Part shown: positions 7,041-29,277 of the stretch, one piece after another | Layout: every line of letters begins with the position of its first letter | Numbering within the stretch: the first letter of the stretch is position 1 | Source of the DNA: Bordetella parapertussis | GTDB lineage: Bacteria > Pseudomonadota > Gammaproteobacteria > Burkholderiales > SG8-41 | Reading direction: 5' to 3' | DNA: 64,000 bases | Assembly: GCA_945861275.1 (NCBI GenBank) | Contig: CAMATZ010000033.1 | Coordinates: 1-64,000, forward strand | Notes under the pieces: model-generated | Seen by the model: only the letters and a program-made list of their open reading frames with translations | Told to the model about the DNA's origin: nothing | The model's database searches: none | Position numbers and translations under genes: made by a program

Positions 7041-10000
7041 ATGCCCAAGCGTACAGACATCAAGTCCATCCTGATCATCGGCGCCGGCCCGATCATCATC
7101 GGCCAGGCGTGCGAGTTTGATTACTCCGGCGCGCAGGCGTGCAAAGCGTTGCGCGAGGAGGGTTATCGCGTGGTGCTGGTGAATTCCAATCCTGCGACCA
7201 TCATGACCGATCCCGGCATGGCGGATGCGACCTACATCGAGCCGATCACCTGGCAGATGGTTGCAAAAATCATCGCCATCGAAAGGCCCGATGCGCTGCT
7301 GCCGACGATGGGCGGGCAGACCGCGTTAAATTGCGCGCTCGACCTCGCGCGTGAAGGTGTGCTGGCAAAATACGGCGTGGAAATGATCGGTGCCTCCAAG
7401 GAGGCTATCGACAAGGCCGAGGATCGCGAAAAATTCAAAAAGGCGATGGCCAAGATCGGCCTCGACAGCCCGCGCTCCGCGCTTGCGCATTCGCTGGAAG
7501 AGGCGCTGCAAGTGCAGGCGATGGTGGGCTACCCGACGATTATCCGCCCCTCGTTCACGCTTGGCGGCACCGGTGGCGGCATCGCTTACAACAAGGAAGA
7601 ATTTATTGCCATCGTGGAGCGCGGCATCGATGCCAGCCCCACGCACGAAATTCTGATCGAAGAATCGGTGATCGGCTGGAAAGAATTCGAGATGGAAGTG
7701 GTGCGTGACCGCAAGGATAACTGCATCATCGTTTGCTCGATCGAAAACCTGGATGCGATGGGCGTGCATACCGGCGACTCGATCACGGTGGCGCCGGCGC
7801 AGACGCTGACTGACAAGGAGTATCAGATCATGCGTAACGCCTCGATCGCGTGCCTGCGCGAAATCGGGGTGGACACCGGCGGCTCCAACGTGCAGTTTGG
7901 CATCAACCCCAAAGACGGGCGCATGGTCATTATCGAGATGAATCCGCGCGTGTCGCGCTCAAGCGCGCTGGCATCGAAAGCAACGGGTTTTCCGATTGCC
8001 AAAGTCGCGGCCAAGCTGGCGGTGGGTTACACCCTGGATGAGTTGCGCAATGACATTACGGGTGGCGCGACACCGGCGTCGTTCGAGCCGACGATCGATT
8101 ATGTGGTAACCAAGATACCGCGCTTTGCGTTCGAGAAATTTCCCTCGGCCGATGATCGGCTGACCACGCAAATGAAATCCGTGGGCGAGGTGATGGCGAT
8201 GGGCCGCACCTTTCAGGAGTCGATGCAAAAAGCCTTGCGCGGGCTGGAAGTGGGTGTGGATGGATTTAATCAGCGCACGCGTGACCGCGAAGTCATTGAA
8301 GCCGAGCTGGGGCGTCCGGGGCCGGATCGCATCTGGTATGTGGGTGACGCGTTCGAGTGCGGGTTTACGCTGGAAGAGGTGCACGAACTTACGCACATCG
8401 ATCCCTGGTTCCTGGCGCAGATCAAGGACCTCATCGATATCGAAATGGCGCTTGACGATCAGCAGTTGGTCAATATCGATGCGGCCGCCCTGCGCGGGCT
8501 CAAACGCAAGGGTTTTTCCGACCGCCGCCTCGCGCACCTGCTCAAGTCCAGAGAGGCCGATGTGCGCAAACGCCGGCACGATCTCGGCATCCGGCCGGTG
8601 TACAAGCGCGTGGACACCTGCGCCGCGGAGTTCGCCACCAACACCGCATACCTGTATTCGACCTATGAGGAAGAGTGCGAATCGCTGCCAACCACGCGCA
8701 GGAAAATCATGGTGCTGGGCGGCGGGCCGAATCGCATCGGCCAGGGCATTGAGTTCGATTATTGCTGCGTGCACGCAGCGCTGGCGCTGCGCGAAGACGG
8801 CTTCGAGACCATCATGGTCAACTGCAATCCGGAGACGGTTTCCACGGATTACGATACCTCGGACCGATTGTACTTTGAGCCGGTGACGCTGGAAGATGTG
8901 CTGGAAATAGTACACATCGAAAAACCCTTTGGCGTGATCGTGCAGTTTGGCGGACAAACGCCGCTGAAACTGGCGCGCGATCTGGAGGCGAATGGCGTGC
9001 CGATCATCGGCACTTCTCCGGATTCCATCGACGTGGCCGAAGACCGCGAGCGTTTCCAGAAGTTGCTGCAGCGGCTAAAGTTGAAGCAGCCGCCGAATCG
9101 CACGGTGCGCAGCGCGGCGAAGGCGTTGCTGGCAGCGGAGGAAATCGGTTATCCGCTGGTGGTGCGTCCGTCGTATGTGCTGGGCGGGCGTGCGATGGAA
9201 ATCGTGCATCAGAAGGAAGACCTCGAACGTTATATGCGTGAGGCGGTAAAGGTATCCAACGATTCGCCCGTATTGCTCGACCACTTTTTGAACGATGCGA
9301 TTGAAGTTGACGTGGATGCGGTGTCCGACGGCACGCAAGTGATTATCGGCGGCGTGATGGAACACATTGAGCAAGCGGGTGTGCATTCGGGCGACTCGGC
9401 GTGTTCGCTGCCGCCGTTTTCGCTGTCGCCCGCATTGCAGGAAGAACTGCGCCGCCAGACGGTGGCGATGGCAAAAGCGCTGAAAGTGGTGGGGCTGATG
9501 AACGTGCAATTCGCGATTCAGAAAAACGGCGATGCCGACGTGGTGTATGTGCTGGAAGTGAATCCGCGCGCCTCGCGCACGGTGCCGTTTGTATCGAAGG
9601 CCACCAGTCTGCCGCTGGCCAAAATAGCGGCCCGCTGTCAATCCGGTAAAACACTTTTAAATCAAAACGTTACATGCGAAATAGTGCCGCCATATTTTTG
9701 CGTTAAAGAAGCGGTATTTCCGTTCATAAAATTTCCCGGCGCGGATACCATACTGGGCCCGGAAATGAAATCGACGGGTGAAGTGATGGGTGTGGGCGAA
9801 ACTTTCGGCGAGGCGTTTGTAAAATCACAAATGGCGGCGGGCGAAAAATTACCGACGACGGGTAAAGTGTTCGTCAGCGTGCGCGATGGCGACAAGCCGC
9901 GCGCGGTGGAGATCGGCCGCGCGCTGGATGCGCTGGGGTTTGCGCTGGTGGCCACACGCGGTACCGCGAATGCGCTGGCCGCCGCGGGACTGAAAGTCAC

Positions 10001-17707: not shown

Positions 17708-17792
17708 GCCGTCGTGGTGGAATTGGTAGACACGCCGTCTTGAGGGGGCGGTGGCGAAAGCCGTGAGAGTTCGAGTCTCTCCGTCGGCACCA
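17708..17792 (+). tRNA. tRNA-Leu (anticodon GAG)
   Basis: The 85-base sequence folds as a class II tRNA. It has a GCCGTCG / CGTCGGC-type acceptor stem and encoded CCA at 17790-17792, a TGGTAGAC D-arm, and anticodon stem CCGTC/GGCGG with loop TTGAGGG giving GAG. A long variable arm (TGGCGAAAGCCG) and GTTCGAGTC T-loop follow. The secG-tRNA-Leu-nuoA order is typical of Betaproteobacteria. Confidence 0.96.
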
Positions 17793-17873: not shown

Positions 17874-18248
17874 ATGCTAGAAAATTATTTTCCCATTCTG
17901 ATGTTTGTCGGCGTCGGACTTATGGTTGGTGTTGCGCCGATGTTGTTGGGTAGCGGACTTTCACGGCTGCTGGGCGCACATCGGCCGAACGAGGAAAAAC
18001 TTTCTCCGTACGAGTGCGGCTTCGAGGCGTTTGAAGATGCGCGCATGAAATTCGACGTGCGCTACTATCTGGTGGCGATACTGTTCATTCTGTTTGATCT
18101 CGAAATTGCGTTTCTGTTTCCGTGGGCGATCGTGCTCGGCGAGCAGAGCGAAAGCACGTTCCGTTACCTCGCCATGGTGGTGTTCCTTGGCATCCTCGTC
18201 GTGGGTTTTGTTTATGAGTGGATGAAGGGCGCACTGGACTGGGAATAA
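17874..18248 (+). CDS. nuoA: NADH-quinone oxidoreductase subunit A
   Basis: Membrane subunit of complex I. The 124-residue product has three membrane helices (about 5-28, 65-88, 96-116) and the conserved loop with the key cysteine, [12 protein letters not shown], then [26 protein letters not shown]. Normally nuoB follows directly. Here 4.5 kb encoding fumarate reductase and a methyltransferase intervene. Confidence 0.96.
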
Positions 18249-18342
18249 AGGGAAAGCGCAAAGGGTTTGCCGCGACGGTCGCTGCGTTACAGGAATTCGC
18301 GCCGGCAGCGTGTGACGTAGTGCAAGGGGTCGATCGGAGCCG

Positions 18343-20103
18343 ATGGAAACTATCCGCACAGACGTTGCGATTGTAGGAGCCGGCGGGGCCGGTTTACGCG
18401 CCGCCATCGCGCTGGCGGAGACCGATCCGACGCTGCGCATCGCGCTCATCTCCAAGGTCTACCCGATGCGCAGCCATACCTGCGCGGCCGAGGGTGGCGC
18501 GGCCGGGGTGATCAAGCCGGACGACAGCCTCGAACATCACTTCAACGATACCGTAGGCGGCGGTGATTGGCTGTGCGATCAGGACGCCGTGGACTACCTG
18601 GTACAGGAAGCCCCCAAGGAACTTATTCAACTCGAACACTGGGGTTGTCCGTGGAGCCGCGAGGCGGACGGATCGGTGGCCGTGCGTCCGTTCGGCGGCA
18701 TGCTGAAACAGCGCACCTGGTTTGCCGCCGATAAATCCGGTTTTCACATCCTGCATACGCTGTTCCAGACCTCGCTCAAGTATTCCTCCATCCAGCGCTT
18801 CGACGAGTATTACGCCACCGATCTGATCGTCGATGACGGACGTTGTCAGGGGTTCACCGCGATCGAGATGCGCAGCGGCCAGATGCGGCTGTTCCAGGCG
18901 CGCGCCGTGATCATCGCCGGCGGTGGCGCCGGCCGCATGTTCCCCTTTACCACCAACGGCGCGATCAAGACCGGCGACGGCATGGCGCTGGCGTATCGCG
19001 CCGGCGTGCCGCTCAAGGACATGGAATTCGTCCAATACCATCCGACCGGTCTGCCCAACACCGGCACGCTGCTGACCGAAGCTTGCCGTGGCGAGGGTGG
19101 AATCCTGCTCAACAGGAACGGCCGCCGTTTTTTGCAGGACTACGGCATGGGACCGGAGACGCCGGTGGGCAAGCCGCAACTCAAGACCATGGAACTTGGC
19201 CCGCGCGACCGCGTCAGCCAGGCGTTCTGGCATGAGCAGAAAAAGGGCAATATGCTGCCCACCAAGTATGGCGATTGCATGCTGCTCGATCTGCGGCATC
19301 TGGGTGAGAAGAAAATCAACGAGCGCCTGCCGCTGGTGCGCGACATGTCGATCAGCTATTTGAGTGTCGATCCGGTCACCGATCCGGTGCCCGTGCGCCC
19401 GGTCGTGCATTACATGATGGGCGGCATCGATACCGACATCAGGGCTGCGACGCCGCTTGCCGGACTGTTCGCTGCGGGCGAGTGCGCTTGTGTGAGTATC
19501 AACGGCGCTAACCGCCTCGGCTCAAATTCCCTCACCGAGATTCTGGTGTTCGGGCGCCGCGCCGCGCTGAGCGCGGTCGAGTACATGCGCTCCGGCGCCC
19601 GTTCTGAAAACAATGCGGCGCTGGCGGCGCAGGCTGCGGCAGCGCAGGCGCGTATTCGTGCGCTGTTCGAGAAAACGGGCGGCAGGGAATCCGTCGCCGG
19701 GTTGCGCCGCGAAATGATGGCGACGATGGAGGACCACGCGGGAATTTATCGCAGCGCGGCGGGATTGTCAGCGGCGTGCAACAAGCTTGGCGAACTTCGC
19801 CAGCGCTATCGGGAGGTCGAATTGACCGACAAAACCAACGTCTACAACACCGACCTGCTGCAGGCGCTGGAGCTGGGTTCGATGCTGGATTGCGCGGAGG
19901 CGGTCACCGCCAGCGCACTGGCGCGCACGGAGTCGCGCGGCGCCCACCAGCGGCTCGACTTCGTCGAGCGCGACGACAAGAACTTTCTGCGCCATTCGCT
20001 GGCGCACTTTCAATCGAGCGACCCGCCCCGAATCGATTATCGCGACGTGGTAATTACCAAATCCCAGCCAGGCGTGCGTGATTATTCGGGAGGCCACAAA
20101 TGA
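18343..20103 (+). CDS. frdA: Fumarate reductase flavoprotein subunit
   Basis: Catalytic subunit of quinol:fumarate reductase, facing the cytoplasm. The 586-residue sequence resembles E. coli FrdA closely. It has the FAD-binding VAIVGAGGAGLRAAIA (8-23), covalent-FAD His45 in PMRSHT, the GGDWLCDQD segment, QYHPTGLPNTG, EACRGEGGIL and GANRLGSNSLTE. These variants (WGCPWSR, YGMGPETPVG, LGPRDRVSQAFWHE) are FrdA-like rather than SdhA-like. First gene of frdABCD, 94 bases after nuoA on the same strand. Direction of catalysis in vivo is an inference. Confidence 0.95.
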   Translation: METIRTDVAIVGAGGAGLRAAIALAETDPTLRIALISKVYPMRSHTCAAEGGAAGVIKPDDSLEHHFNDTVGGGDWLCDQDAVDYLVQEAPKELIQLEHWGCPWSREADGSVAVRPFGGMLKQRTWFAADKSGFHILHTLFQTSLKYSSIQRFDEYYATDLIVDDGRCQGFTAIEMRSGQMRLFQARAVIIAGGGAGRMFPFTTNGAIKTGDGMALAYRAGVPLKDMEFVQYHPTGLPNTGTLLTEACRGEGGILLNRNGRRFLQDYGMGPETPVGKPQLKTMELGPRDRVSQAFWHEQKKGNMLPTKYGDCMLLDLRHLGEKKINERLPLVRDMSISYLSVDPVTDPVPVRPVVHYMMGGIDTDIRAATPLAGLFAAGECACVSINGANRLGSNSLTEILVFGRRAALSAVEYMRSGARSENNAALAAQAAAAQARIRALFEKTGGRESVAGLRREMMATMEDHAGIYRSAAGLSAACNKLGELRQRYREVELTDKTNVYNTDLLQALELGSMLDCAEAVTASALARTESRGAHQRLDFVERDDKNFLRHSLAHFQSSDPPRIDYRDVVITKSQPGVRDYSGGHK

Positions 20104-20843
20104 GCGAGCGCCTGTTTGAACTGGAGGTGTTGCGCTACAACCCGGAGACCGATAAGGAGCCGCATTTCCAGCGTTACACGGTCAGTTGCGAGGAAGAGTG
20201 GGTAGTGCTGGACGCCTTGAATCGCATCAAGGAAACGCTCGACCCCACGCTGAGCTACCGCTGGTCGTGCCATATGGCGGTGTGCGGCAGCTGCGGCATG
20301 ATGATCAACAGCGAGCCCAAGCTCGCCTGCAAGTCTTTCCTGCGCAACTATAGCGGCGTGATTCGCGTCGAGCCTCTTGCCCATTTCCCGATCGAACGCG
20401 ACCTGGTAACGGTTATTGACGATTTCGTCGATAAACTCAAGCGCGTCAAGCCCTACCTGATTGCGAAAGAAGAAAAGCCCTTGAGCGCCGGCGAGTATCG
20501 CCAAACGCCGGCCCAACTGAAGAAATTCAAGCAGTACACCCTCTGCATCAACTGCATGCTGTGTTATGCCGCATGCCCTGAATACGGCTTGATACCCAAG
20601 TTCATCGGCCCGGCTGTGATCGCACTTGCACATCGCTACAATCAGGATTCTCGTGATGGCGGGCGCGATGAACGGCAGGAGGAAATTGCGGCGAGCGAAG
20701 GCGTGTGGGAATGCTCGTTTGCAGGCGCCTGCTCCGAAGTGTGTCCCGAGCACGTCGATCCGGCCGGCGCGCTGCAACAGGTCAAGATCGCGAGCACCGT
20801 AGACTGGTACCAGGAACATTTGATGCCCTGGGTGAAGAAATGA
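20100..20843 (+). CDS. frdB: Fumarate reductase iron-sulfur subunit
   Basis: Carries electrons from quinol to FrdA. The 247-residue product has all cluster ligands. The [2Fe-2S] site is C57, C62, C65 and C77 in WSCHMAVCGSCG and KLACK. The two C-terminal clusters use CINCMLCYAACP (149-160) and C205, C211, C215. The ATG overlaps the frdA stop (ATGA), showing translational coupling. It matches E. coli FrdB in its details, such as YRWSC, FPIERDLV, GPAVIALAHRYN and SRD. Confidence 0.95.
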   Translation: MSERLFELEVLRYNPETDKEPHFQRYTVSCEEEWVVLDALNRIKETLDPTLSYRWSCHMAVCGSCGMMINSEPKLACKSFLRNYSGVIRVEPLAHFPIERDLVTVIDDFVDKLKRVKPYLIAKEEKPLSAGEYRQTPAQLKKFKQYTLCINCMLCYAACPEYGLIPKFIGPAVIALAHRYNQDSRDGGRDERQEEIAASEGVWECSFAGACSEVCPEHVDPAGALQQVKIASTVDWYQEHLMPWVKK

Positions 20844-21232
20844 GTCGTAAACCTTACACGCGCGAAGTGCCGAGGGTACGCTGGTTCTTTGATCATCCGC
20901 GCTACCTGCGTTACATGGCGCGTGAATTAACCTGCCTCTTCATTGGCGCCTATACCTTGCTGCTGGTGGTGGGGATAGGGCGGCTGGCGGAAGGGCGGGT
21001 AGCCTATGAGGCCTTCCTTGAAGCACTGAAGAGTCCGCCGAGTGTCGTGTTTCACGTGCTGGCGCTCGGTTTTGCCATCTATCACAGCGTGACCTGGTTC
21101 AATCTGACACCCAAGGCGCTGCCTGTTCAGATAGGTGAGGAATTCATGCCCGACTGGGTAATCGCCGGCGCCCACTATGCGGTTTGGGTATTGTTGTCGC
21201 TGGGCGTACTTTTTCTCGCGGGAGTATTCTGA
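20840..21232 (+). CDS. frdC: Fumarate reductase membrane anchor subunit C
   Basis: One of two hydrophobic anchors that bind the quinone. 130 residues with three predicted membrane helices (about 27-50, 66-90, 105-128). The start SRKPYTREVPRVRWFF and the segment HSVTWFNLTPKALPV match E. coli FrdC (RKPYVRP...; HTKTWFELAPKA). ATG at 20840 overlaps the frdB stop. The frame is open further upstream inside frdB, but that extension is a shadow of frdB. Confidence 0.9.
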   Translation: MSRKPYTREVPRVRWFFDHPRYLRYMARELTCLFIGAYTLLLVVGIGRLAEGRVAYEAFLEALKSPPSVVFHVLALGFAIYHSVTWFNLTPKALPVQIGEEFMPDWVIAGAHYAVWVLLSLGVLFLAGVF

Positions 21233-21234
21233 CC

Positions 21235-21576
21235 ATGGGCAAGTCGAATAAACCGCTGGTGTGGGGACCGTTTGCTGCAGGGGGTACCATAACCGCGTTC
21301 CTGACCCCGGTATTGATCCTGTTGACGCTGCTGGCGGCGCTAGGGCAGATGCCGGAGTTGCTCGCCTATGAGCGCCTGCACGCATTGGTGTCGCACTGGC
21401 TGGTCAAGTCCGTGATCGTGGTGGTGGTTTTTCTGTCGTTGTGGAGCGCTGCACACCGGCTGCGCATCACGTGCTACGATTTTGGGGTGCGGGCGGATAC
21501 ACTGGTGGCAGCGCTGGTTTATTTTGTTGCAGTGGCCGCTACCCTGGCAACCATCGTTTTCCTCGCCCGATTCTGA
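21235..21576 (+). CDS. frdD: Fumarate reductase membrane anchor subunit D
   Basis: Second anchor of the heterodimeric membrane domain, so this is an E. coli-type (two-anchor, normally haem-free) quinol:fumarate reductase. 113 residues, three membrane helices (about 14-38, 53-75, 88-110). Recognisable features are KPLVWGPFAAGGTITAFLTPVLILL and LWSAAHRLRI, like E. coli FrdD (PVFWGLFGAGG; LWCGLHRM). The start is two bases after the frdC stop. Confidence 0.9.
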   Translation: MGKSNKPLVWGPFAAGGTITAFLTPVLILLTLLAALGQMPELLAYERLHALVSHWLVKSVIVVVVFLSLWSAAHRLRITCYDFGVRADTLVAALVYFVAVAATLATIVFLARF

Positions 21577-21682
21577 GTACTGCGAAGTGAGGCGCGGCAT
21601 GGAGAGGACAGATTTTGCGGAATAGAAGAGCGTGCACGCGTGCAGCGGCAGCCGACGTAGATGTTATGGAGACCCACAGTAG

Positions 21683-22449
21683 ATGATCCCGCCGCCGCCA
21701 CCCGTAGCTACACGCGAACTTGTGCGTGAAGACCGCTTTAATGCAATTTGGACGCAGGAACTGAATAATGTTTTTGCCGATGTTGCGCCCTATTATGACC
21801 GTGCCAACTACGTCGCGAGCCTTGGACTATGGGGCTGGTTTCTCAACAGTTTCATGTCCATAATCGAGCTGCGGTCGAATCAGCGCGCGCTGGACGTATG
21901 CGCTGGCACCAATGCCATAGGGATTGCTCTGCTGCGGCGCGAGCCCAGCCTTGAAGTGTACGCAATAGACCGCAGCGCGGAGATGCAGGAGGTCGGCCGG
22001 CAGCGTGCCGAGGCCCGCGGGTTTCGCATCCACAGCGTCATCGGCGACGTGCATCAGCTGCCTTTTCCCGATATCACTTTGACGTTGTCACCCTGCAGTT
22101 CGCCTCGCGGCACCTGCGCGTAAAGCACGTCTTCGGCGAGATTCATCGCGTGCTTAAGCCGGGTGGAAGTTTTTACCATTGCGACATGTTGCGACCGGCC
22201 AATCCGCTGGTCGCTAAACTGTACTATGCTTACTTGCGCATGTGCCTGGCATTCACCGGTTTTCTGTTCCGCAGCAACACCGCCGCGTTGAACTGCAAGA
22301 AATATTTCATCGATGCGCTGCAAATGTTCTACTCGGCCAATGAATTGTCGGATGTCCTGCGTGGCGTGGGCTACTGCGACGTCTCGGCCAAGACCGTGTT
22401 TGCGGGCATGATCGGATGCCACCGTGCGCTCAAGCCACAGCCGAAATGA
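21683..22449 (+). pseudogene. UbiE/MenG-like quinone C-methyltransferase gene with one frameshift
   Basis: Two frames together encode one class I SAM methyltransferase of about 255 residues. The first part (21683 to about 22072) has the UbiE-type start VFADVAPYYDRANYVASLGLWGWF and SAM motif ALDVCAGTNAIGIALL. The second part (about 22075-22449, one frame back) continues FDVVTLQFASRHLRV, IHRVLKPGG, then YFIDALQMFYSANELSDVL and a UbiE-like end GMIGCHRALKP. A single missing base near 22070-22074 explains the break, which could be a real mutation or a sequencing error. The position after frdD suggests modification of a low-potential quinone such as a demethylmenaquinone. Substrate unproven. Confidence 0.75.
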
Positions 22450-22723
22450 AGCTGCGGTCCGCCGCGCGACTAAGATGTCGCACGCCGGAATGAGCTTCTG
22501 CGTTGACCCACGGTGCCCGGGAGAGTTAAAATCCGACATCTTTGATAGCAGGCAAGCTTGGAAATTGGCGCTGCATTTTCAGTGACGGGTAGCGCAGGAT
22601 AACCATCGCTAGTTTGCGCCTGATTTACTGCGTGTTTCCCTGAGCATTTTTTTATAAGCATAGCCCATTTAATGGTGAATAGAGGCGCGAAAATGGATGC
22701 GGAATTTGTCACCAGGGAACAGC

Positions 22724-23206
22724 ATGGGCGCGATTGACCAGAACCTGACACAGCATGGCTTTGTCACCACGACGGTCGACACGGTCGTCAACTGGACACG
22801 CACCGGGTCGCTGTGGCCGATGACGTTCGGACTTGCCTGTTGCGCGATCGAAATGATGCACGCGGGCGCTTCGCGCTACGATCTCGACCGCTTTGGCATC
22901 GTGTTTCGGCCGAGTCCGCGCCAGTCTGATCTGATGATCATTGCCGGCACCTTGTGTAACAAGATGGCGCCCGCCCTGCGCAAGGTCTACGACCAGATGG
23001 CCGAGCCGCGGTGGGTGATCTCGATGGGTTCCTGTGCCAACGGCGGGGGCTACTATCACTATTCCTACTCCGTGGTTCGGGGCTGTGATCGCATTGTGCC
23101 GGTCGACATCTACGTGCCGGGCTGCCCGCCGACGGCGGAAGCACTGCTCTACGGCATCATTCAGTTGCAGAACAAGATCAAAAGAACCAATACCATCGCA
23201 CGCTGA
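22724..23206 (+). CDS. nuoB: NADH-quinone oxidoreductase subunit B
   Basis: Holds the terminal N2 cluster next to the quinone site of complex I. 160 residues with tandem cysteines C39-C40 ([11 protein letters not shown]), [12 protein letters not shown] and the [11 protein letters not shown] motif. ATG at 22724 follows AGGGA and gives [17 protein letters not shown], close to other betaproteobacterial NuoB starts. An ATG at 22697 would add nine residues. It is preceded by 274 bases without a gene after the methyltransferase, so an independent promoter is possible. Confidence 0.96.
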
Positions 23207-23829
23207 TGTCTTCCCGGCTCGAAACCCTGACCACAGTGGTGCAAGCGGCGCTGGGCGATATGCTCGTCAGTTCCACCGTCGCGCTTGGCGAATTGACCGT
23301 GGTGGTGAAGTCCGGGCATCTGCTGACGGTGGCGCAAAAGCTGCGTGATTCTGCGGCGCTGAAATTCGAGCAAATGATTGATATTTGCGGCATGGACTAT
23401 AGTCGCCACGGTGAAGGTGCGTGGCAGGGCCAAAGATTTGCGGTGGTGTATCACCTGTTGAGCATCAGCTATAACTGTCGTTTGCGCCTGCGTGTATTCG
23501 CGGACGACGATGATTTCCCGGTCGTTGATTCGGTGATCGGCGTGTGGCCCGCGGCGAATTGGTTTGAACGTGAAGCCTTCGATCTTTTCGGCATCATTTT
23601 CAGCGGCCACCCGGATCTGCGCCGCATCCTGACCGACTATGGGTTTATCGGCCACCCGTTCCGCAAGGATTTTCCGATCTCGGGTAACGTCGAGATGCGC
23701 TACGACCCGGACAAGCAGCGCGTCATTTACCAGCCGGTCACGATTGAGCCGCGCGAAATCGTGCCGCGCATCCTGCGCGAGGAGCACTACGGCGACAGCG
23801 AGGGTTTGCGCAGTAGTGGCAAGGACTGA
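23206..23829 (+). CDS. nuoC: NADH-quinone oxidoreductase subunit C
   Basis: Hydrophilic 30-kDa-type subunit of the connecting arm. 207 residues with the family segments [38 protein letters not shown] and GHPFRKDFP. The ATG overlaps the nuoB stop. It is not fused to NuoD, unlike in E. coli. Confidence 0.96.
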
Positions 23830-23832
23830 AGC

Positions 23833-25086
23833 ATGGCCGAGATCCGCAATTACACGATGAATTTTGGCCCGCAGCATCCTGCGGCGCACGGCGTGTTGCG
23901 GCTGGTGCTGGAGCTTGACGGCGAAGTGGTCGAACGCGCCGACCCGCATATCGGATTGCTGCATCGCGCTACTGAAAAACTGGCCGAGCACCGGACCTAC
24001 CTGCAGACGTTGCCGTACATGGACCGGCTCGACTACACCACCCTGATATGCAACGAGCACGCCTATGTGATGGCGATCGAAAAGCTCCTTGGCCTCGAAG
24101 TGCCGCTGCGCGCGCAGTACATCCGGGTGATGTTCGATGAGATTACACGGGTGCTGTCGCACCTATTCGCGCTTGGCGCCCATGGCCTTGACCTTGGGGC
24201 GATGACCGTATTTCTGTACTGCTTTCGCGAACGCGAGGATTTGGTCGACGTGTATGAGGCTGTCACCGGCGCGCGCATGCATGCCGCCTACTACCGGCCG
24301 GGGGGTGTCTACCGCGATCTGCCAGACCGCATGCCGCAGTACCAGGCGTCGAAAATCCATAACGCGTCCGCAGTACGCGTACTCAACGAGAATCGCCAGG
24401 GCTCCGTTCTGGATTTCATCGAGGACTTCATCAACCGATTTCCAAAATGCATCGATGAATACGAAACGCTGCTTACCGACAACCGCATCTGGAAGCAGCG
24501 TACCGTTGGCATCGGCGTGGTTTCGCCGGAGCGTGCGATGGCGCTGGGTTTCAGCGGCCCGATGCTGCGCGGGTCGGGTGTCGAATGGGACTTGCGCAAG
24601 AAGCAGCCCTACGAGGTCTATGACCGGCTTGAGTTCGATATACCAGTCGGCGTGAACGGCGACTGCTATGACCGTTACCTGATACGTATCGACGAGATGC
24701 GGCAGTCGAATCGCATTATCCGGCAGTGCGTGGACTGGCTGCGCAAGAACCCGGGACCGGTGATCACCGGCGATCACAAGGTTGCCCCGCCCTCGCGCCT
24801 CGCGATGAAGGCCAACATGGAGGAGTTGATCCATCACTTCAAGCTTTTCACCGAGGGCATGCACGTGCCGCCGGGCGAGGCGTACGCGGCGGTGGAGCAC
24901 CCCAAGGGTGAATTCGGGATTTACCTGGTCTCCGACGGCGCCAACAAGCCTTATCGGATGAAAATACGCTCGCCGAGTTTCACCCATCTGTCCGCTATGG
25001 ACGAAATGGCGCGTGGCCACATGCTGGCGGATGTGGTGGCCATTATCGGCACCTATGAAATCGTGTTCGGGGAGATCGATAGATGA
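23833..25086 (+). CDS. nuoD: NADH-quinone oxidoreductase subunit D
   Basis: 49-kDa-type subunit that forms the quinone-binding cavity with NuoB. 417 residues with [15 protein letters not shown], the [14 protein letters not shown] segment, [17 protein letters not shown] and C-terminal GEIDR. It starts three bases after nuoC. Confidence 0.97.
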
Positions 25087-25571
25087 ATGCGCGGATGATG
25101 CTGAGTCCGGGCGCGCTCGCCAAAATCGATAAGGCGATTGCCAAATATCCGCCGCAAGAGAAGCAGTCCGCGGTGATGGCGGCGCTGACCATCGCGCAGG
25201 ATGAAAAAGGCTGGCTCTCAACCGAGACCATGGATTTCGTGGCGCAATATCTCGAGATGCCGCCGGTGGCGGTGTATGAAGTGGCAACGTTCTATACGAT
25301 GTATGACGTAAAGCCGGTTGGACGCCACAAATTGACGATTTGCACCAATCTGCCGTGCGCGCTGTCTGGGGCAAACCATGCCGCCGGGTATCTTAAGCAC
25401 AAGCTCGGTATCGGATTTGGAGAAACCACGACGGATGGCCGTTTTACGCTGAAAGAAGGCGAGTGCCTGGGCGCTTGCGGTGATGCGCCGGTGTTGATAC
25501 ACAATAACAAACAGATGCTGTGTGCAATGTCGAACGAGAAGATCGACAGGCTGATCGAGGAGCTGAAGTAA
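25083..25571 (+). CDS. nuoE: NADH-quinone oxidoreductase subunit E
   Basis: 24-kDa-type subunit with the N1a [2Fe-2S] cluster. 162 residues. Ligands are the two cysteines in CTNLPCAL and the two in [11 protein letters not shown]. The start overlaps the nuoD stop by four bases. Confidence 0.96.
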
Positions 25572-26884
25572 TGGGCTTGCCTGTCGCACCCTTCGCGAAA
25601 GATCTGTATGGCCCCGATGCCCTGATCATGAAGGACATCGACGGCACCAATTGGCGTCTCAAGGACTACGAGGCACGCGGCGGCTATCAGGCGTTGCGCA
25701 AAATCATCAACCAAAAGATTTCACCTGAAACCGTCATCGCCGAGGTCAAGAAATCGGCGTTGCGCGGACGCGGCGGCGCGGGGTTTCCGGCGGGGCTCAA
25801 ATGGAGTTTCATGCCGCGGCAGTATGCGGGTGCGAAGTATCTGGTGTGCAACTCCGACGAAGGCGAGCCGGGCACCTTCAAGGATCGCGATATCCTGCGC
25901 TATAACCCGCACAGCGTGATCGAGGGCATGGCCATCGCCGCCTACGCCATGGGCACTGCCGTCGGTTACAACTACATACACGGCGAAATCTGGGACATCT
26001 ACGAGCGCTTTGATGAAGCGCTGGAAGAGGCGCGTGCTGCAGGCTACCTGGGTGACAGGATTCTGGGATCGGAATTCAGCTTCCAGCTACACGGACACCA
26101 CGGATTCGGCGCTTACATCTGCGGCGAGGAAACCGGGCTGCTGGAGTCGCTCGAAGGTAAAAAAGGCCAGCCGCGCTTCAAGCCGCCGTTTCCGGCGAGC
26201 TTTGGTCTGTATGGTAAGCCGACCACGATCAACAATACCGAAACGTTTGCGGCGGTGCCGTGGATCATTGTTAACGGCGGGGAGGCTTTCCTCAATCTGG
26301 GCAAGCCCAACAATGGCGGCACCAAATTGTTCTCGGTATCGGGCGACGTGGCGCGTCCGGGTAACTACGAAGTCAGGCTCGGAACGCCGTTCGCGAAATT
26401 GCTGGAAATGGCCGGCGGCATGCGCGATGGCAAAAAATTGAAGGCCGTAATCCCCGGTGGTTCGTCGATGCCTGTGTTGCCCGCCGACATCATGATGGCC
26501 ACCGACATGGATTACGACTCCATTGCCAAGGCGGGATCGATGCTCGGTTCCGGTGCGGTGATCGTGATGGATGAAACGCGCTGCATGGTGAAGTCGCTGC
26601 TGCGTTTGTCGTATTTTTATTTTGAGGAGTCGTGCGGCCAATGCACGCCGTGCCGTGAGGGCACCGGCTGGCTGTATCGCATGGTTGACCGCATAGAGCA
26701 TGGCAAGGGCCGCAACGAAGACCTCGATCAATTGAACCGCGTGGCCGACAATATTCAGGGACGCACGATTTGCGCGCTGGGCGACGCAGCGGCGATGCCG
26801 GTGCGTGCGTTTATCCATCATTATCGCGATGAATTTCAATATCACATCGACCACAAGAAATGTCTTGTGGCGCCTTACATCTAA
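25571..26884 (+). CDS. nuoF: NADH-quinone oxidoreductase subunit F
   Basis: NADH- and FMN-binding 51-kDa-type subunit, where electrons enter complex I. 437 residues with FMN/NADH loops [14 protein letters not shown] and [20 protein letters not shown], and the N3 [4Fe-4S] ligands in [11 protein letters not shown] plus a later cysteine in TICALGD. The ATG overlaps the last base of the nuoE stop. Confidence 0.97.
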
Positions 26885-29277
26885 TGCCACTAGAAATCGA
26901 AATTGACGGCAACACGCTTGAAGTGCCCGACGGCAGTACGGTGATGGATGCCGCGCGTCTGGCGGGCATTTACGTGCCGCATTTTTGCTATCACCGCAAG
27001 CTGTCGATAGCCGCCAATTGCCGCATGTGTCTGGTGCAGATCGAAAAAGCGCCCAAGCCCATGCCGGCGTGCGCGACACCGGTGACCAACGGCATGAAAG
27101 TGCAAACCCATTCCGAGCAGGCCGTCACCGCACAAAAAGGCGTGATGGAGTTTTTGCTGATTAATCATCCGCTGGATTGCCCGATCTGCGATCAGGGCGG
27201 CGAATGCCAGTTGCAGGATTTGGCGGTGGGTTATGGCGCCAGCGGCTCGCAATACGAAGAAGACAAGCGCGTGGTGGTCAACAAAAACCTGGGGCCGCTG
27301 ATTGCCACTGACATGACGCGCTGCATACACTGCACGCGCTGTGTGCGCTTCGGGCAGGAGATCGCCGGTGTAATGGAACTCGGCATGATCGGGCGCGGCG
27401 AGCATGTCGAGATCATCACCTTCGTCGGCAAGACCGTGGATTCCGAATTGTCGGGCAACGTGATCGACCTGTGCCCGGTGGGCGCGTTGACCTCCAAGCC
27501 ATTCCGCTACAGCGCGCGCACCTGGGAGCTTACGCGCAAATCTTCGATCAGCCCGCACTGCGGTCTGGGTTCCAACCTGACGTTGCAGATAAAGCAAAAC
27601 CGGGTGATGCGCGCACTGCCGCTTGAGAACGAAGCGATCAACGAGTGCTGGATTTCGGATAAAGACCGTTTCTCGTATGAGGCGCTTAATTCCGATCAGC
27701 GCCTCGCGCGTCCGATGTTAAAGCAAAGCGGGGCATGGAAAGAAGTGGATTGGCAGACCGCACTGGCGTTTGTCGCCACCGAACTAAAACGCATCGCGGC
27801 GGCGCATGGTGCGCAATCCATCGGCGCGCTGGCGACGCCGCATCAAACGCTGGAAGAGTTGCATCTGCTGCAAAAAGTGATGCGTGGTTTGGGATCGGGC
27901 AATGTCGATTTCCGCTTGCGCCAGTCTGATTTCCGCGCCGACGGCAGCATGGCTGGCGCGCCGTGGCTGGGGATGAGTATCGCTGAAGTGTCGCAACTGG
28001 ATCGTGTGCTGGTGGTCGGTTCCAGCTTACGCAAGGATCAGCCGCTGATCGCGCACCGGCTGCGGCAGTCTGCTAAAAAATCATTAAAAATCAATATTCT
28101 GCATGCAGTAGATGATGATCTGCTGATGCGCATTACAAATAAGGCTATCGTCGCGCCGGCGGCGATGGTGGATACGCTGGCACAGGTGGTGAAGGCGGCA
28201 TCAGCGGCGAAAAATGTGGCCGTGCCGCATAGCGTGAGCGCCGCGGTGGCTAACGTGACGATTGCTGACAATGCCCAGCGCATCGCGGCCAGCCTTGTCG
28301 ATGGCAGGAATGTCGCGGTGTTCCTCGGCAATTTCGCGCAGCATCATGCGCAGGCGTCGCAACTGCACGCGCTGGCGCAGGCGTTGGCGGAAATCACCGG
28401 CGGACGTTTTGGTTTTCTGGGTGAGGCTGCGAACAGCGTCGGCGGTTACGTCGCGAACGCGCTGCCTTCAGACTCAGGCGCCGGTGGCGCCAACGCGGCG
28501 CAGATGATTGCGCAGCCGCTCAAGGCGTATGTGTTGCTGGGTGTCGAACCCGAACTCGATATGCATGATCCGCGCCTGTCCGTCGCCGCCATGAAGCAGG
28601 CCGAGCTGGTGGTGGCGATGAGCGCTTACCAGCACCGGGCGCTGGATTACGCGCAGGTGCTGTTGCCGATTTCTCCGTTCACCGAGACCGCGGGCACCTT
28701 CATCAATACCGAAGGCCGTGCGCAAAGTTTTCAGGGCGTGGTGCAGCCGTTGGGTGAGACGCGGCCCGCGTGGAAAGTGTTGCGTGTGCTCGGCAATCTG
28801 CTGGGGCTGGCGGGATTTGAGCAACAAAGCGCCGACGATGTGCGCCTTGAAGCCCTCGGCATAGAAAACAAAAATATTAATAAAAACAATAGCTTACACT
28901 CAGAACCGAAGGGCGTAGTTGCGGCAGGTTCAGGTCTGCAACGCATCGCCGAAACGCCGATTTACGCGGCAGACGCGATTGTGCGCCGCGCGCCGTCGCT
29001 GCAAAAAACACACGATGGATTGCCGCCGCTGGCGAGCATGAATCGTGCACTGGCCGACACGCTTGGATTGCGTGATGGCGACAGCCTGCGCGTGCGCCAG
29101 GGTGGCGGCGAGGCGTTGGTGGCGTATGCCATCGACGATAAATTGCCGGCACACTGCATACGGCTCGCCGCTGCGTGCGCAGAAACCGCTGCGCTGGGTG
29201 ACGCCCATGCCGAATTGACGGTTGAGCGTATTGCGGGTCAGCCGCTGTTGCCCAAGGTGGAAGAGGTCGCGGTGTGA
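26884..29277 (+). CDS. nuoG: NADH-quinone oxidoreductase subunit G
   Basis: 75-kDa-type subunit carrying the [2Fe-2S] N1b and [4Fe-4S] N4/N5 clusters. 797 residues: ferredoxin-like start with CRMCLV and PACATPV, the [19 protein letters not shown] segment, the [13 protein letters not shown] cluster site, then a molybdopterin-oxidoreductase-like region without molybdenum function. Near residue 660 there is a short Asn/Lys-rich insert ([14 protein letters not shown]) encoded by an AT-rich patch that contains the 16-nt repeat. Confidence 0.96.
28881..28896 (+). repeat. AT-rich 16-mer repeat, copy b
   Basis: TAAAAACAATAGCTTA inside nuoG, identical to the copy at the start of the BamE-domain gene (3641-3656). 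It encodes part of an Asn/Lys-rich insert in NuoG. Confidence 0.7.

Follow-up and report, generated by a model that had tools for sequence, protein, structure and literature searches.

The fumarate reductase operon inside the nuo operon

The window analysed here is a 64,000-nt stretch of contig 33 from a draft genome (5.5 Mb in 95 contigs, 96.65% complete, 2.1% contamination) which is labelled G000. In this window the genes of complex I (nuo) are interrupted between nuoA and nuoB by intact frdA, frdB, frdC and frdD genes for a fumarate reductase (Frd), all on the + strand (Table 1). The genes are closely packed, with 4-base overlaps at frdA/frdB and frdB/frdC and a gap of 2 bases between frdC and frdD. 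A gene for a UbiE-like S-adenosylmethionine (SAM) enzyme, labelled MT here, lies between frdD and nuoB and is found in two pieces (21683-22123 and about 22060-22449) with a frame break near 22070. One of them matches the front of the UbiE profile and the other its back. Our scans, whose totals were little above those of shuffled sequences, listed no terminator on the + strand between nuoA and frdA and one promoter-like site before nuoB (22503-22532). One transcript may cover nuoA, frd and the nuo genes.

FrdA of the window scored 951 bits on PRK09231 (cut-off 854) and 933.0 bits on TIGR01176, where the margin over the cut-off of 932.7 is only 0.3 bits, and it has the SHT motif of the flavin adenine dinucleotide site. 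FrdB reached 368 bits against a fumarate reductase cut-off of 333, and the two membrane anchors were recognised by PF02300 (FrdC, 128 bits, cut-off 24) and PF02313 (FrdD, 94 bits, cut-off 25). FrdD also passed its NCBIfam profile (74 against 60 bits) and FrdC did not reach the cut-off of the corresponding one (86 against 143 bits). In a tree of 56 proteins, in which long branches near the E. coli sequences call for caution, the genome's own SdhA was observed to pair with E. coli SdhA (100/100) while the frd-linked proteins lie opposite SdhA together with E. coli FrdA, so that the window protein groups with FrdA and not with SdhA. The initial annotation had described a complete two-anchor frdABCD between nuoA and nuoB on the same strand, with a methyltransferase before nuoB; profiles, coordinates and tree agree with all of this, except that the methyltransferase frame is broken.

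Members of the window's FrdA clade are at least 76% identical to the window protein where the whole protein was compared, and they have MT or the rhodoquinone enzyme RquA behind frdD, except for G248, whose MT sits in its nuo locus. Fourteen positions of the proximal quinone site of Frd were compared in the window, in 23 MT-linked loci and in 11 RquA-linked loci. The MT-linked and RquA-linked enzymes have the same residue at most of these positions. As an example, A18 of FrdD is common to both groups and is a glycine in E. coli.

Table 1. Positions of the genes and other features at the nuo-frd locus of the window
Feature	Position	Strand	Evidence
tRNA-Leu (gag), secG-nuoA gap	17708..17792	+	ARAGORN
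nuoA, resident allele	17874..18248	+	PF00507 131 bits; protein 99% identical in congener G360
Putatively imported tract, frdABCD-MT-nuoBCD	18249..25160; right edge ~25160-25202, nuoE start	+	DNA identity profile and base-level edge alignments against G360
frdA, flavoprotein subunit, SHT motif present	18343..20103	+	Family profiles, tree
frdB, iron-sulfur subunit	20100..20843	+	Family profiles, quinone-pocket residues
frdC, membrane anchor	20840..21232	+	PF02300; quinone-pocket residues
frdD, membrane anchor	21235..21576	+	PF02313; quinone-pocket residues
MT, UbiE-like SAM enzyme, separate clade, frame-broken near 22070	21683..22449	+	Profiles; clade from intact relatives
nuoB, putatively imported allele	22724..23206	+	95% to G333, 94% to G335, 90-92% to congeners
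nuoC and nuoD, putatively imported alleles	23206..25086	+	NuoD 91% to G335, 84% to congener G360
nuoE; resident sequence back within its start	25083..25571	+	Identity profile, edge alignments

Recurrence and ancestry of the insert

NuoB was sought in all 74 genomes of the family and was matched in 64, in 58 of which the interval before nuoB could be read. As the contig of G310 ends before nuoA, 57 readable nuoA-nuoB intervals were left. The order nuoA-frdABCD-MT-nuoB was found in seven of them, namely G000 (genus g1), G333 and G342 (g3) and G304-G307 (g137). The layout is therefore not singular, as the initial annotation had supposed, and its presence in six other genomes from three genera in all means that neither chance nor a one-off misassembly explains the window. 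In G331 and G335 MT alone stands between nuoA and nuoB; their frd is at another place and its FrdA falls in a different clade. In G344 (L072, G344:C53, about 7845-8187) the interval holds a remnant of 28 frdA codons and 97 MT codons, which suggests loss of the cassette by deletion. The other 47 intervals have no insert. In G335 a second, partial NuoA reading (47%; L070:10642-10791) was observed between nuoB and X, a protein often encoded behind MT, as if insertion of the cassette had left a duplicate of nuoA.

Comparison with the congener G360 shows the window to be a mosaic. The DNA identity is about 95% (mostly 91-97%) from position 11.5 kb of the window to the nuoA stop, with a few 250-base steps at 80-90%, and the identity profile has no G360 counterpart for the frd-MT segment (18250-22700). 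Identity is 72-87% over nuoBCD and returns to 94-99% in every step of 25250-27000 (nuoE and nuoF). Base-level alignments place the left edge of this mosaic at the nuoA stop codon and the right edge at about 25160-25202. The proteins follow the same division: TpiA, NuoA, NuoE and NuoF of the window are 96-99% identical to those of G360, whereas NuoB is 95% identical to G333 and NuoD 91% identical to G335 (g3) as against 91% and 84% to G360. Furthermore, among the 14 genomes of the window's genus, frdC was found over cut-off in this one alone. The foreign identity profile, the g3-like NuoB and NuoD and the restriction of frdC to this member of the genus point to import of frd and MT along with nuoBCD, probably by homologous recombination. 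The donor is not among the genomes compared and the signals on its genus conflict: NuoB and NuoD point to g3, and the window's partner in the FrdA tree is L220 (G342, also g3), but by identity G306 of g137 has the closest FrdA (91%). In another congener, G363 (L077/L076), identity is also reduced over nuoB to nuoF (window 22750-26500), which suggests repeated recombination of this nuo stretch.

MT and RquA behind frdD

MT is a single open frame of 249-257 codons in nine relatives and is likewise open (250 aa) in G342. The intact proteins do not reach the curated UbiE/MenG cut-off TIGR01934 (158 bits), scoring 124-143 bits in one set and 132 and 135 bits for L226 and L247. MT falls on the UbiE side of the tree but far from the UbiE rows, on a branch of 2.26. 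The MT clade (100/99) and the RquA clade (100/100) are separate, in a tree for which the program noted that the bootstrap had not settled. NF038261 (rhodoquin_RquA, cut-off 175 bits) gave no match for the two MT pieces of the window at E up to 0.001. It was also absent from the 25 best families listed for the MT of L226 and L247, in searches that yielded 34 and 37 families at E up to 0.01 and in which the last listed score was 23-24 bits; the RquA control, from G203, scored 322 bits. MT was considered as a form of RquA and this identity was rejected because of its separate clade and the absence of NF038261 from the matches listed.

RquA forms rhodoquinone from ubiquinone with SAM as the amino donor and needs two aspartates for this, according to Neupane 2022 (PMC9814641). 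Our alignments show that the two SAM-binding aspartates of RquA (D118 and D143) are aligned and kept in MT, where D94 and D121 are invariant in alignment A5. Both MT and RquA have a deviant motif I in the SAM site, each in its own way. The predicted structure of MT (predicted local distance difference test, pLDDT, 90.7) has yeast Coq5 as its closest solved fold, with an E-value of 8.5e-18 and template modelling scores of 0.74/0.80. Canonical UbiE was found in 15 of the 17 genomes tested, the window genome's copy being on G000:C14. A further divergent UbiE-like protein, 28% identical to MT, is encoded in the same genome at G000:C67:4778-5431 (L200).

G203 and G030 have RquA behind frdD, and ten RquA proteins encoded there, other than that of G203, are 62-88% identical to the G203 protein. 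Within the window's FrdA clade, all 11 genomes with RquA have it directly behind frdD, as do 10 of the 11 with MT. Both genes were sought in 80 genomes, which comprise the 74 of the family and six picked for having frdC (G271, G103, G030, G248, G064 and G299). Within the family frdC occurs in 23 genomes, of which 10 have MT, 12 have RquA, none has both and one (G332) has neither; all ten genomes with MT have frdC, as do 12 of the 14 with RquA. Over the 80 genomes the counts are 29 with frdC, 13 with MT and 16 with RquA (14 with frdC), with no overlap and with two frdC genomes (G332 and G299) having neither. The broken MT of the window was counted as MT. Left out of the counts were the G344 remnant, a weak MT match in G064 (113 bits, placed with canonical UbiE by the tree), two pieces of a broken RquA in G103 (an MT genome) and weak RquA matches in G324 and G326. 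G264 and G142, whose frdC belongs to another clade, also stand outside these counts; RquA lies beside frdA in G264 and none was seen near frd in G142. When mapped on the tree of FrdA proteins, the distribution of MT and that of RquA require at least four changes each, with 5 and 6 on the best tree, and thus it seems that one gene has replaced the other on several occasions behind this operon. In L030 and L192, RquA was observed beside frdA of another, E. coli-like FrdA clade, so that RquA is linked to frd in a second setting as well.

A scan of species genomes gave 236 stretches coding for MT relatives, including those of Sulfurisoma sediminicola BSN1 and Parasulfuritortus cantonensis LSR1, and the best 80 loci were examined. 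Among these, frd is within 1.5 kb of MT in 49 (with frdD directly upstream in 45), nuo in 44, either of them in 60 and both in 33. Five arrangements recur: nuoA-frd-MT-nuoB as in the window; frd-MT-tpiA-secG-nuoA; secG-MT-nuoA at loci that have no frd (in Sulfurisoma, among others); secG-MT-frd-nuoA (Sterolibacterium); and frd-MT in divergent orientation to nuo (in Sulfuritalea, among others). In addition, MT is followed on the same strand, at a distance of at most 100 bases, by the X gene (about 210 codons) in 57 of the 80 loci (for example L226:10832-11473 of S. sediminicola BSN1). A confident prediction (pLDDT 93) makes X helical over nearly its whole length; in the members tested it reached the cut-off of no Pfam or NCBIfam family, and no clear solved structural relative was found. 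Of 80 genomes searched for it, nine have X, all of them with MT, and G300 has a fragment; X was not found in four MT genomes, which are G304, G307, G342 and the window's own.

The marker genes of menaquinone synthesis are missing or weak in the 17 genomes tested, which include 12 of the 13 MT genomes. MenD was over cut-off in none of the 17, with only weaker matches of at most 104 against 244 bits, while 7 of 14 controls were over it, and PF02621 (MqnA/MqnD) gave no match in G000.

A candidate NADH:fumarate chain and its alternatives

We lean, by a small margin of confidence, towards a reading in which nuo, MT (in many lineages with X) and frd form a proton-pumping chain from NADH (reduced nicotinamide adenine dinucleotide) to fumarate, with MT making a low-potential quinone and with the cassette imported in this genome. 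A mobile cassette of frdABCD and MT, with X in many lineages, would have entered the nuo operon, or a site next to it, in many betaproteobacteria, and in the window's genome it would have arrived through homologous recombination in which nuoB, nuoC and nuoD were replaced as well. Under anoxia complex I would oxidise NADH, pump protons and reduce a quinone, and FrdABCD would reoxidise the quinol with fumarate, the presumed direction of this enzyme in vivo. According to PMC13386864 and PMC5953543, it is the potential that makes rhodoquinone, and not ubiquinone, the partner of fumarate reduction. MT, standing in for RquA, would convert the head group of ubiquinone or of a precursor to give a quinone of low enough potential. 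The gene content, the mosaic, the recurrence, the interleaving of MT with RquA behind frdD and the missing or weak menaquinone markers are observed, whereas the quinone reaction, the direction of Frd and co-expression are inferred. The coupling of complex I to fumarate reductase, already proposed in the initial annotation, is strengthened in general by the five arrangements of frd, MT and nuo in other betaproteobacteria and weakened for this genome, where MT is broken and X was not found. Beyond that proposal, the frd-MT-nuoBCD block appears to be imported and MT appears to take the place of RquA, which may bear on the missing low-potential quinone of such a chain.

A number of observations weigh against this reading. 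In the window's own genome the MT frame is broken and X was not found, so the chain may be decaying there and Frd may use another quinol. MT is not RquA, and an arginine in MT is aligned with that of the UbiE LRN motif, which makes ordinary methyl transfer as possible as amino transfer. The shared pocket residues may be explained by common descent alone, FrdC position 82 is N in 8 of the 23 MT-linked rows and H in all RquA-linked ones, and the base of the window's FrdA clade is weakly supported (90/62). Neither frd nor nuo is near MT in 20 of the 80 loci, and RquA occurs without frdC in G340 and G355. The mutual exclusion of MT and RquA was counted over related genomes, some of them incomplete or up to 9% contaminated, and for this reason its P of 1.5e-6 is too small and indicative only. 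The menaquinone check used one gene family per pathway, and partial PF02621 matches of 29-31 bits (cut-off 26) were seen in G342, which is a genome with frd and MT, and in G344 and G203; among the controls 4 of 14 gave a match. UbiV, of oxygen-free ubiquinone synthesis, was not found in the window's genome.

One alternative, unlikely in our estimate, is that Frd works as an additional succinate:ubiquinone oxidoreductase, or as an electron safety valve, with MT as a spare UbiE for making ubiquinone near complex I. Fumarate reductase can run backwards, the window's genome has its own canonical UbiE and a separate SdhA, and MT has the Coq5 fold and a place on the UbiE side of the tree. However, its distance from the UbiE rows and its scores below the family cut-off speak against a spare copy, and canonical UbiE is already present in 10 of 12 MT genomes; the exceptions, G304 and G307, are both incomplete, and their MT-free relative G308 is likewise without it. 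The exclusion between MT and RquA behind frdD would also be left unexplained. We give a similarly low probability to the insert being a decaying passenger that came in with nuoBCD by chance, in which MT is broken, X is lost and frd is to follow as in G344. The frame break, the missing X, the remnant in G344 and the isolated occurrence of frdC within the genus would all fit this, but the four frd frames are intact with most of the quinone-pocket residues kept, the one break in the MT frame may stem from an error in the draft sequence, and X is also missing in G304, G307 and G342, all of which have an open MT and a full frd at this site. An assembly chimera of two species is very improbable, even for a draft in 95 contigs with 2.1% contamination and a tract whose ancestry differs from that of its flanks. 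It would need two joins within one operon, both preserving gene spacing. Resident-type nuoA and nuoE flank the tract, six other genomes have the same gene order, and no other close NuoB was found in the genome, only a 34% relative.

A broader proposal, which we hold tentatively and at somewhat less than even confidence, is that MT, often with X, gives bacteria a second way of making a low-potential quinone, either rhodoquinone or a new benzoquinone, which needs neither RquA nor one of the two menaquinone pathways. This route would move together with frd and nuo, and a few genomes would have it near an arsenate-reductase-like molybdoenzyme. A molybdoenzyme is common to three of the twenty loci without frd or nuo (L242, L271 and L280), and that of L271 (5087-7642) resembles the arsenate reductase ArrA with 980 bits, below the cut-off of 1600. 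Enzymes of this kind are usually fed by low-potential quinols. The L271 locus, from a Rhodocyclales metagenome-assembled genome, has a second MT copy; a PF02613 (nitrate reductase delta) protein is nearby (8482-9168) and neighbouring genes may encode a two-component system. Should MT be an enzyme for a low-potential quinone, RquA-based surveys of rhodoquinone in Pseudomonadota (PMC11707229, PMC13386864) would miss many betaproteobacteria, including strains BSN1 and LSR1, and many betaproteobacteria scored as ubiquinone-only would be capable of fumarate-type respiration. The locus brings complex I, a candidate quinone enzyme and fumarate reductase, which would make up a minimal anoxic energy-conserving chain, together in one gene cluster, and it shows how such a chain can pass between genomes when alleles within a core respiratory operon are replaced.

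The window matches E. coli FrdABCD in its subunits, gene order, two anchors and FrdA group. Nine of the 14 pocket positions are identical (Q225 and K228 of FrdB; R28, E29, H82 and W86 of FrdC; W14, H80 and R81 of FrdD) and differences were observed at FrdB 160 and 205, FrdC 32 and FrdD 18 and 84. Unlike in E. coli, frd lies inside nuo with a SAM enzyme gene behind frdD, MenD is not over cut-off in the 17 genomes and PF02621 is absent or weak. UbiE/Coq5 C-methyltransferases are the best Pfam and NCBIfam relatives of MT as well as its best solved fold. However, MT stays below the family cut-off, its motif I reads LDVCAGTNA where that of E. coli UbiE is LDLAGGTGD, and it usually stands beside a canonical UbiE (10 of the 12 MT genomes). 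With the RquA-rhodoquinone-fumarate reductase systems, as covered in Stairs 2018 (PMC5953543) and Neupane 2022 (PMC9814641), the locus shares a SAM enzyme of the UbiE/Coq5 kind directly behind fumarate reductase, and the same frd clade carries RquA in that place in 11 genomes; MT differs in forming its own clade, in lacking the N-terminal YWWAY stretch of RquA and in its motif I. The proposed path from NADH through a low-potential quinone to fumarate is that of the Ascaris-type chain of complex I, rhodoquinone and complex II, as outlined in PMC5953543, whereas the chain proposed here would be bacterial, with a dedicated frd and with its genes clustered in or beside nuo.

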